Position numbers and translations under genes: made by a program
Assembly (NCBI GenBank): GCA_028866945.1
Contig: JAGWHE010000003.1
Location: forward strand, 1-63,338
DNA from: Nitrososphaerota archaeon
Lineage (GTDB): Archaea > Thermoproteota > Nitrososphaeria > Nitrososphaerales > Gagatemarchaeaceae
Direction of reading: 5' to 3'
Length of the DNA stretch: 63,338 nt
The notes under the pieces: generated by a model
What the model saw: the letters and a program-made list of their open reading frames with translations, nothing else
Database searches by the model: none
What the model was told of the DNA's origin: nothing
In this document: piece by piece, positions 15,863 through 28,012 of the stretch
Layout: each line of letters opens with the position of its first letter
How positions within the stretch are numbered: position 1 is the stretch's first letter

Positions 15863-15938
15863 TCAGGGATCATCGCCCCCGGCCGAGCAGGTAGACAATT
15901 GGCGGGCCCTGTGGGATTCGAACCCACGGCATGCTGGT

Positions 15939-15954
15939 CTCTCTGAGCCCTACC
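15939..15954 (-). other. Canonical 16-nt tRNA intron with bulge-helix-bulge
   Basis: Sequence GGTAGGGCTCAGAGAG on the tRNA strand, after position 37. The 4-bp central helix CTCT/AGAG and the 3-nt bulges TAG and AGA place both cuts exactly at the ends given. The endonuclease EndA is the expected cutter, and RtcB (60064-61521) the expected ligase. Confidence 0.85.
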
Positions 15955-15969
15955 TAAGAGCCAGCCGCT

Positions 15970-15988
15970 GACAGTGAGACGAATCTCA
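15970..15988 (-). other. 19-nt insertion in the D arm, candidate second intron
   Basis: It interrupts the D stem between canonical positions 22 and 23. With neighbouring bases it folds as AGTGAGA-TTCG-TCTCACT, a 7-bp hairpin with a TTCG loop. I could not draw a strict 3-4-3 bulge-helix-bulge at its ends, so splicing there is uncertain. A permanently extended D arm is the alternative. Confidence 0.55.
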
Positions 15989-16052
15989 CTAACCTGGCTG
16001 AGCCAAGGGCCCGCGTTACGCGGCGGATTTGGGCGGCGATTAAAGCGTTTAT

Positions 16053-25394: not shown

Positions 25395-25742
25395 ATGAAA
25401 CAGGCGATCGTGGTCAGGACAGACTTGGGGATGGGGAAGGGGAAGGCGGCCGCCCAGGTCGCCCATGCGTCGCTTGCAGCCGCCGAGGCCGCCATGCAGA
25501 GGAAGGGAGGGTGGTACGAGGCCTGGAAGGAAGGGGGGCAGGCGAAGATCGTCCTGAAGGTGGCGTCCGAATCTGACCTCAGGGATGTCTTCCGCAAGGC
25601 GAAGTCAGCGGGTCTCCCTGCCTCGCTGATTGAAGACAGAGGGCTGACTCAGATAGAGCCCGGGTCGGCGACCTGCGTGGGCATCGGCCCCGCTCCGGAC
25701 GCGGAGGTGGACGCGATCACGGGGAAACTCAAGCTGCTTTGA
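25395..25742 (+). CDS. pth2: Peptidyl-tRNA hydrolase Pth2
   Basis: A 115-residue archaeal/eukaryal-type peptidyl-tRNA hydrolase. The signature KQAIVVRTDLGMGKGKAAAQ with VAHASLAAAEAA, the stretch GGQAKIVLKVASESDLRDVF, and ETrp-like end segment LTQIEPGSATCVGIGPAPD are all present. It recycles tRNA from aborted peptidyl-tRNA. Its stop overlaps the TTG start of the truD gene by 4 nt. Confidence 0.96.
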   Translation: MKQAIVVRTDLGMGKGKAAAQVAHASLAAAEAAMQRKGGWYEAWKEGGQAKIVLKVASESDLRDVFRKAKSAGLPASLIEDRGLTQIEPGSATCVGIGPAPDAEVDAITGKLKLL

Positions 25743-26968
25743 CCGAGGCAGCCGCCGTCGAGTCGGCCGTCGGTATCGAGGTCTATGCCACTGCGGGGGA
25801 CAGGTGCGGCGGGGTGGCGAAGTCGTCGGCCGAGGACTTCAGGGTGGAGGAGATGGTCTCGGTGGGCGAGATGGGCAAGGAGCCCCTTCCCGGCTACTTC
25901 CCGGTCTACAGGGTCGAGAAACTGGGCGTGGACACCATGCACATGGCGGAGCTGCTATCCAGGGCGCTCAAGAGCAGGGTCAGCTAAGGCGGTATGAGAG
26001 ACAGCAGGGCGCGCTCGGTGCAGTACGTGACCCCGACGAGCCTGCGGTCGGCCAGGCCTGAGAGGGTCGACGGAGGCAGGTTCACGGCAAACCTGGTGGG
26101 CTGGGTGCCGAGGCCGCTGACCCGCGGCTCGGTTGTGGGCAACAGGTTCCTCGTGGTCCTGAGGGAGTGCTGCGAGACGATAGGCCAGAGAGCCGAGGAG
26201 GCGTACGATGCGGCCAGGAGGGGGAAGGTTCCCAACTACTTCGGGCTCCAGCGCTTCGGCGTAAGGGGGGCAGGGACCCACGCAGTCGGCAAGGCGATGG
26301 TCGATGGGGACTTCGAAGGCGCGGTCAGGCTCATACTCGGGGATTCTGCGGGCGAACAGGTGCTCAGCGGCGGCGGGGCCCCGCGCCTGGCGCGTGGCCA
26401 GGACATCGAAAGGGCGGTGGCAAGGGAGGCGGAGAGGCACCCCGGAGAGTGGGTCAGGGCGCTCAGGGCCGTCCCCCTGAAGCTGAGGAGGCTGTACGTG
26501 CAGGCGTATCAGTCGTTCATATTCAACAGGTCGCTGAGCCTGGCGCTGCGGGCCGGGGAGGACATCTCTGCCTACGTGAAGGGGGACAACTGGGCCGCCG
26601 TCTCGGAAGGGGGGCTCCTGACTTCGCACGCCAGGAGCGCCAGGGAGGACCCGGCGGGGAGGGCGACGCCGCTGATCCAGCTCGCGGGGTACGCCTACCG
26701 GAACTACGGCTCGAGGTTCGACGGCTACGTCGAGGAGGTCCTCCGGGCAGAAGGGGTCTCGCCGGGGCAATTCTTCATCGAAGCGATGCAGGAGGCCTCT
26801 GCCGAAGGCGGGTTCAGGCGCCCACAGATTGCGATAGCAGAAGAGTTCTGGAAGTCAGAGGGGAAGACCGCGGAGCTGTCTTTCGCACTCGGCAGGGGGC
26901 AGTACGCCACGGTCCTGCTCCGTGAAATACTGAAACCCGAGGATCCGTTGGTTTCAGGCCTCTTCTAA
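25739..26968 (+). pseudogene. truD: tRNA pseudouridine(13) synthase TruD interrupted by an in-frame TAA
   Basis: Two adjoining stretches in the same frame make one TruD. The first 82 codons (TTG 25739, VESAVGIEVYATAGDRCGG to ALKSRVS) end at TAA 25985-25987. The frame continues at once with GGMRDSRARSVQYVTPTS, which carries the catalytic Asp (codon 26000-26002). It then runs 324 residues to the TruD C-terminus. The stop stands where the family has Phe or Tyr before GG/AGxKD, so a TAY-to-TAA change fits. TruD makes pseudouridine 13 in tRNA. Readthrough, a sequencing error, or real loss are the options. Restart at ATG 25994 would drop the first 85 codons. Confidence 0.85.
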
Positions 26969-27016: not shown

Positions 27017-28012
27017 ATGGCCTCGGAAGTCTTCGACCTCACCATAGTCGGTGCGGGGCCGAGCGGTCTCTTCGCCACTTTCTACGCCGGCCTCAGGCAG
27101 ATGAAGACCAAGGTGATCGACGCGCTGGAGGAGCCCGGAGGCCAGGTCGCGGTGCTCTATCCGGAGAAGTACATCTTCGATGTCCCTGGGTACACCAAGA
27201 TACTGGCCAAGGACCTGGTGAAGGCGCTGGTGGACCAGGCCTTCCAGTACAAGGCGACGCTGGTCCTCGGGGAGAGGGTGACTTCCCTGCACAAGACTGA
27301 CGGGGTCATCGAGCTCTCTACGGACAAGGGCACCAAGCACTACTCGAAGGCGGTCCTCATAGCGGCAGGGGTGGGGGCGTTCTCCCCAAACAGGCTGGAG
27401 GCGAAGGGGGCGCCTGACTACGAAGGCAAGGGCGTGTACTATTTCGTGAAAGACAAGAGCGTGTTCAAGGGCAAGAACCTCCTCATCGTCGGGGGCGGGG
27501 ACTCGGCGGTGGACTGGGCGCTCAACATCAAGGACATCGCCAAGAAGATCACCCTCGTCCACAGGAGGGACGTCTTCAGGGCGCACGAGGGGAGCGTGGC
27601 GGAGCTCATGAAGTCCAGCGTCGATGTGAGGCTGTTCTACGAGGTCGGGAGCGTGACGGGGGACGGGACCAGGGTTACAGGCGCGGTGATATTCGACAAC
27701 AGGACGAAGGCGGAGACCACCCTCGAAGTCGACGCCATCCTGGTGAACATCGGGTTCAGGGCAGACCTCGGGCCGATAAAGGACTGGGGGCTGCAGATAG
27801 ACGGGAGGGAGATAAGGTCCAACGGGAAGATGGAGACCAACATCCCGGGCGTCTACGTCGCGGGCGACATCGCAGGCCCCCTGGACGGGGTGAAGCTGAA
27901 CTTGATCGCCACCGGGTATGCTCAGGCTGCGCTCGCGGTCAACGTGGCGAAGGCGTACGTCGACCCGACGTCAAAGATATTCCCCGGCCACAGCAGCGAG
28001 ATGAAGAAGTAG
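27017..28012 (+). CDS. Ferredoxin-NADP reductase, thioredoxin-reductase-like type
   Basis: A 331-residue FAD/NADPH protein. FAD motif: LTIVGAGPSGLFATFYAGLR with EEPGGQVAVLYPEK. NADPH motif: NLLIVGGGDSAVDWALNIKD with VHRRDVFRAHE. The C-terminal FAD loop is GVYVAGDIAGPLDGVKLNLI. The CxxC of thioredoxin reductase is absent in the middle domain, which marks the ferredoxin-NADP(+) reductase type. It exchanges electrons between NADPH and ferredoxin, possibly that at 57970. It is convergent with rpl15e. Confidence 0.93.
   Translation: MASEVFDLTIVGAGPSGLFATFYAGLRQMKTKVIDALEEPGGQVAVLYPEKYIFDVPGYTKILAKDLVKALVDQAFQYKATLVLGERVTSLHKTDGVIELSTDKGTKHYSKAVLIAAGVGAFSPNRLEAKGAPDYEGKGVYYFVKDKSVFKGKNLLIVGGGDSAVDWALNIKDIAKKITLVHRRDVFRAHEGSVAELMKSSVDVRLFYEVGSVTGDGTRVTGAVIFDNRTKAETTLEVDAILVNIGFRADLGPIKDWGLQIDGREIRSNGKMETNIPGVYVAGDIAGPLDGVKLNLIATGYAQAALAVNVAKAYVDPTSKIFPGHSSEMKK

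Follow-up and report, generated by a model that had tools for sequence, protein, structure and literature searches.

An in-frame stop codon just ahead of the catalytic loop in an otherwise well-kept archaeal truD gene

Does a truD gene with a stop codon just ahead of its catalytic loop still give rise to a working tRNA pseudouridine synthase, and is the stop real? This question is raised by a stretch of 63,338 nucleotides from a Nitrososphaerota archaeon of the family Gagatemarchaeaceae (the window, meaning the whole stretch of DNA that was analysed). On the forward strand the truD frame opens with a TTG at 25739 and closes with a TAA at 26966-26968. When 25739-26968 is translated, a single internal stop appears, at codon 83, in what is otherwise one frame; truD thus has no uninterrupted frame. 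The parts on either side of the stop both match Pfam TruD (PF01142) in that one frame, covering positions 2-69 and 80-412 of a profile of length 412 (Table 1), and the frame read through the stop scores 258 bits (cut-off 27). An earlier note on this DNA had described an in-frame TAA with the frame intact on both sides, standing one codon ahead of the catalytic loop. Both points hold, because the two parts match in one frame and the order that we read is stop, GG-M-R-D.

Table 1. Features of the truD locus (positions are those of the window)
Feature	Position	Strand	Evidence
pth2, peptidyl-tRNA hydrolase	25395..25742	+	Pfam PTH2 E 7.9e-45; NCBIfam Pth2 160 bits, cut-off 126 bits
truD first part, 82 codons; Lys28 and Phe34 = E. 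coli Lys21 and Phe27	25739..25984	+	Pfam TruD positions 2-69, E 1.3e-11; alignment to 1sb7
In-frame TAA, codon 83; Tyr in nearest relatives	25985..25987	+	
Six bases from stop to next in-frame ATG; AAGG at 25986-25989 overlaps the stop (by eye)	25988..25993	+	
truD second part from ATG, 324 codons	25994..26968	+	Pfam TruD positions 80-412, E 6.5e-60
Codon 87, AGA (Arg); Lys in other TruDs examined	25997..25999	+	
Pyridine nucleotide-disulphide oxidoreductase, thioredoxin reductase-like, downstream	27017..28012	+	Pfam Pyr_redox_2 E 1e-31

The gene pth2 lies directly upstream, and its TGA shares bases with the truD start (TTGA). An overlap of this kind (TTGA, ATGA or GTGA) is found at truD in 35 of 37 rows from relatives, for example L003, L004 and L005, one of the other two rows being a fragment, and the overlapping TGA ends a frame open for at least 80 codons in 24 of the 27 rows from the genus. 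This arrangement suggests that truD is translated by coupling to the gene before it. The downstream oxidoreductase scored 178 bits with TRX_reduct, which is under that model's cut-off of 343 bits. The assembly (G000; 1.27 Mb, 73 contigs, 91.8% complete) holds the DNA of the window once, at 100% identity, and the locus at 25739-26968 is its only TruD match. We considered a second truD copy, and none was found in this 91.8% complete assembly. Defence-system profiles found no match in the searched DNA, nor was there a match to the plasmid collection.

The position of the stop matters for the active site. In the TruD structure 1SB7, the active site consists of Lys21, Phe27, Asp80, Phe131 and Phe329, as given in a figure legend of PMC13341174. 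When truD is aligned to 1sb7 (offset of 19, by manual count), Lys28 and Phe34 fall in the first part, and Asp88 and Phe137 (E. coli Phe131) in the second, beyond the stop. The catalytic Asp (E. coli Asp80) and its basic partner (Lys21) are both present as Asp88 and Lys28, on opposite sides of the stop, and by this alignment the Lys/Asp dyad is complete in neither half. A protein restarted at the ATG at 25994 would begin Met-Arg-Asp, with the catalytic Asp as residue 3 at its free end. The protein belongs to the same family as archaeal Pus7 (TruD, PF01142) of structure 1z2z, which it matches over nearly its whole length (query 4-403, E 2.8e-34). It shares the catalytic Asp, Lys28, Phe34 and Phe137 with the TruD family, whereas the stop at codon 83 and an Arg before the catalytic Asp set it apart.

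We searched related genomes for comparable stops. Among 46 genomes of the family, 43 have a TruD match, and only in this genome does a stop lie inside the match. Some of these matches are partial; 42 of the 43 reach the stop's place in the profile (that of G043 does not), and one, in G033, is broken by a frame change. With the sequence 3' of the stop as query, 28 of the 31 genomes of the genus match the second part of truD, without inside stops. The control family PGK, of similar length, matched in 33 of the 46 family genomes, this one included, with 0 inside stops. At the column of the stop, Tyr is the residue of the nearest relatives; Phe, Thr or Ile occurs in some of the others. As in a pseudogene, then, truD here carries a disabling change in a frame that relatives keep intact.

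As a control within the genome itself, 626 kb of it were set against 578 ORFs, which were taken from stretches of two relatives (G009 and G011). A codon-position filter was used, and 233 orthologous coding stretches (70,055 codons) were retained. At the filter stage there were 10 stops with similar flanks, of which the nine besides that of truD were judged to be stretch ends or off-frame ORFs. Under the final rule, which required a stop to lie at least 40 codons from both ends, four stops passed among the 233 stretches, truD included. The three others were judged to be 5' over-extensions, with identities of 44-51% before the stop and 81-92% after it, whereas the flanks of the truD stop are 67% and 73% identical. 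We therefore judge the truD stop, on these alignments, to be the sole genuine internal stop in the 233 stretches, in a control that would miss a stop where the alignment ends at it and that leaves stops near stretch ends uncounted. A single pair resembling a frameshift was noted in the genome (L097). A noisy assembly, with no other internal stop judged genuine in the 233 stretches, is unsupported.

If the stop were old, the gene should show decay, and we looked for it in three ways. First, truD keeps 55 of the 56 columns that are invariant in 34 family TruDs, a count made without three partial rows (L026, L029 and L030). Second, truD and its sister L003 stand at similar distances from outgroups. 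In the second part, truD and L003 are 68.7% and 68.9% identical to L004, and both are 66.9% identical to L005; in the first part, the corresponding values for the two outgroups are 63.0% vs 64.2% and 67.1% vs 62.2%. Third, dN/dS against L003 (NG86) is about 0.26 in the first part (0.234/0.888) and about 0.16 in the second (0.185/1.169), both within the range of other pairs. These ratios show purifying selection on both halves. There is no acceleration in either part and dN/dS is well below 1, so the relaxed constraint of a pseudogene is not seen, although a recent event would not show it. From the invariant columns, the sister-like rate and the selection on both halves, truD appears to have been functional until recently. 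The lack of decay noticed in the earlier note is therefore borne out by conservation, relative distance and dN/dS alike. The stop is then recent, or it is absent from the organism, or its product is still selected.

The one invariant column that is lost lies next to the stop. Codon 87, beside catalytic Asp88, encodes Arg here and Lys in all 34 other family TruDs. Lys is also found in 62 of 62 loci located by a motif pattern (18 of 80 loci were not matched by the pattern) and in the four aligned structure chains 1z2z, 5kkp, 7mzv and 1sb7, which we take to be from Methanosarcina mazei, human, yeast and E. coli. This points to conservation of the Lys, not to a proven requirement for it. The earlier claim that all other TruD parts look undamaged thus stands for the catalytic Asp and 55 of the 56 invariant columns, but not for K87R. 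The ATG at 25994 also differs from the three nearest relatives, which have CTG, TTG and CTG (Leu); among relatives farther away the residue is Leu, Met or Ile. When we considered the 226 columns on which the three nearest relatives agree, the window's copy differed at 20 of them, and at 4 of the 9 that fall in codons 83-93. By shuffling, this cluster has P 0.0045 at this place and P 0.30 as a scan of the whole protein. Without the stop, 3 of 8 agreed columns are changed in codons 84-93, compared with 19 of 225 overall (P 0.022). Because the limits were picked after looking, the cluster is weak evidence.

Our best reading, to which we give about an even chance, is that a recent, lineage-specific nonsense mutation has led to loss of TruD. 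The mutation would interrupt truD, which codes for the tRNA pseudouridine synthase called Pus7 in archaea and is otherwise well kept, immediately ahead of the catalytic loop. Translation entering by coupling from pth2 would end after 82 residues, so that little or no active enzyme would be made. The gene would then be a very young pseudogene, or its loss would be tolerated, either because the cell can do without the modification or because other pseudouridine synthases supply part of it. A synthase of the Cbf5/TruB type is encoded in the genome (PF01509, with no stop inside the match). Three considerations weigh against a nonsense mutation. The lack of decay fits an assembly error equally well. 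The ATG six bases past the stop, at a codon that is Leu in the three nearest relatives, could be an adaptation to a split gene. Finally, the evidence from other genomes that loss is tolerated, which we describe below, can reflect incompleteness of metagenome-assembled genomes (MAGs) where TruD is missing and may reflect sequencing errors where frames are shifted. If the nonsense mutation is real, it is one more young gene break, and also a natural test of the dispensability of psi13 and psi35 in Thaumarchaeota. In a limited literature search we found no earlier report of a premature stop in an archaeal truD.

We asked how often truD is missing or broken elsewhere in the class. A TruD match is present in 351 of 400 genomes; among near-complete genomes (at least 90% complete, at most 5% contaminated) 202 of 220 have a match and 18 have none. 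Inside stops in the class search were checked among the matches listed. We then inspected 22 further genomes with double or weak matches, leaving out G043, G280, G357 and G394 (weak single matches), the double matches of the genus, and the 32 TruD-matching class genomes outside the order, many of which have two or three matches. In 5 of the 22 (G105, G303, G405, G033 and G354), truD pieces lie in different frames on one contig. In G105, a single-contig genome that is 99% complete, the frame shifts within an A8 run immediately ahead of the catalytic motif (L293, about 1487-1494); a sequencing error, slippage or phase variation could account for this. Four other broken copies that we read out were not counted, since the breaks near this motif are contig ends in G304, G362 and G197 and an N run in G375. 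The truD of G354 (L307) is divided on a single contig into three pieces that do not share a frame, and is more broken than the window's copy. Of the class genomes listed without a TruD match, seven come from a single family of the order (f9).

A related case comes from Sulfolobus solfataricus. Its Pus7 makes psi13 weakly and no psi35, and a guide RNA serves for psi35, as described in the available portion of PMC6313347. A loss of function here would resemble that case in that an archaeal Pus7 has reduced activity and modification has another route (PMC6313347, same portion). The two differ in kind, since S. solfataricus has a low-activity enzyme and the gene described here has a nonsense codon.

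The leading alternative, which we regard as rather unlikely though it deserves serious weight, is that the organism's own truD is intact and that the MAG shows the TAA through an error at one consensus position or through a base contributed by a minority strain. The number of contigs and the completeness of the assembly are compatible with such an error, and almost everything but the stop looks functional. DNA of the same species would bear on this directly; there was none in the searched genome contigs, where the relatives reach at most 73% identity and own-genome or near records may be omitted. Against an error, the quality of the genome is otherwise good, the control having turned up no other internal stop judged genuine, although the frameshift-like pair mentioned above was also seen. 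In addition, a conserved position beside the stop carries a change of its own, K87R, and changed columns are in excess in codons 84-93, with limits chosen post hoc. Of the three causes proposed in the earlier note, two remain viable, recent mutation and assembly error, and our data do not separate them; recoding found no specific support (see below).

In a third explanation, which we consider improbable, truD has become a pair of genes: ribosomes arriving from pth2 by coupling would make the 82-residue part and stop at the TAA, translation would restart at the ATG at 25994, and the two parts would form an active enzyme. The TAA and the ATG lie six bases apart in the same frame, the overlap with pth2 was already in place and is common to relatives, the codon that is ATG here is CTG, TTG and CTG in the three nearest relatives, and both parts are under purifying selection. 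A restart after the TAA is plausible, given that termination-reinitiation coupling is described for Haloferax volcanii, including a pair with a 10-nt gap, in the sections of PMC6728339 available to us. The H. volcanii pairs are alike in having a stop and a start a few bases apart (PMC6728339, same sections). They are unlike the present case, in which the halves of one enzyme would be cut before a catalytic residue. That cut speaks against this reading: it falls directly before the catalytic Asp, so that the restart protein would carry this Asp as residue 3 while Lys28 and Phe34 belonged to the other chain. Moreover, no other match listed for the family has a stop, the break in G105 is at nearly the same place but arises by a frame change in an A-run, the local cluster lacks significance when the whole protein is scanned (P 0.30), and ATG is found at this codon in unsplit relatives too. 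The same portion of PMC6728339 also cites an uncoupled pair from Sulfolobus in which the stop and the start are adjacent. The two-part expression allowed for in the earlier note is therefore mechanically possible but runs into the separation of the catalytic Asp from its Lys partner. Were the base real and the protein made in two chains with the break next to the catalytic Asp, this would be unusual for archaea.

Both two-part expression and readthrough by tRNA-Tyr seem to us less likely than a nonsense mutation or an assembly or strain error. Readthrough, in which a near-cognate tRNA, most simply tRNA-Tyr, would read the TAA at a useful rate to give full-length TruD, is very unlikely. The Tyr at this column in the nearest relatives would suit it. 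So would a plant tRNA-Tyr whose G-psi-A anticodon decodes UAG and UAA when these stand in the TMV context (from the accessible part of PMC2754532), and the psi35 that archaeal Pus7 makes in tRNA-Tyr (accessible part of PMC6313347). However, the stop is followed by GGC GGT and lacks a TMV-type CAR-YYA context, and the 101 bases from the stop contain no stable structure (z 0.63), which removes a stimulatory RNA structure as a candidate. TAA is a normal terminator in this genome: across 220 orthologous genes, stop use is TAA 30, TAG 112 and TGA 78. Global reassignment of TAA is thus ruled out, as TAA ends 30 of these 220 genes and truD itself. Nothing comparable is seen among the family matches, and the portion of the review PMC8211752 that was available gives stop readthrough in archaea as shown only for selenocysteine and pyrrolysine. 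The archaeal recoded genes described there (readthrough for these two amino acids and a fucosidase with a -1 frameshift) likewise have an interruption in an otherwise intact frame. They differ in that the codon here is UAA, not UGA or UAG, no signal was found, and the interruption is absent from relatives' matches. With TAA a normal terminator, no stable structure after the stop and no other readthrough judged genuine in the 233 stretches, recoding has no specific support; the stop is unique among the family matches, which is not the pattern of programmed readthrough. If the base is real and UAA is read, it would be an unusual case next to the selenocysteine and pyrrolysine readthrough covered in that portion of PMC8211752.

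A feedback switch, in which TruD/Pus7 makes psi35 and psi35 lets tRNA-Tyr read the UAA that the enzyme's own mRNA has at a Tyr position ahead of the catalytic loop, is conceivable by analogy but extremely improbable, and nothing specific points to it here; if true, full-length enzyme would be made only when the modification is already present, a self-sustaining stop codon gated by tRNA modification in an archaeon. We recognised neither a tRNA-Tyr nor a UAA suppressor tRNA in the parts of the genome that were searched. This is uninformative for readthrough, because the tRNA genes are intron-rich and tRNA-Tyr is equally unrecognised in two near-complete relatives (G004 and G025). In all three genomes the tRNA genes are rich in introns, some of them apparently at unusual positions. 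The window itself contains a likely intron-containing tRNA gene at 15900-16012 on the reverse strand. It was missed by the default tRNA scan, cmscan of the locus (L079) stayed below the gathering score and its anticodon, ctc, is doubtful; the gene was found with RF00005 and the intron option of ARAGORN.
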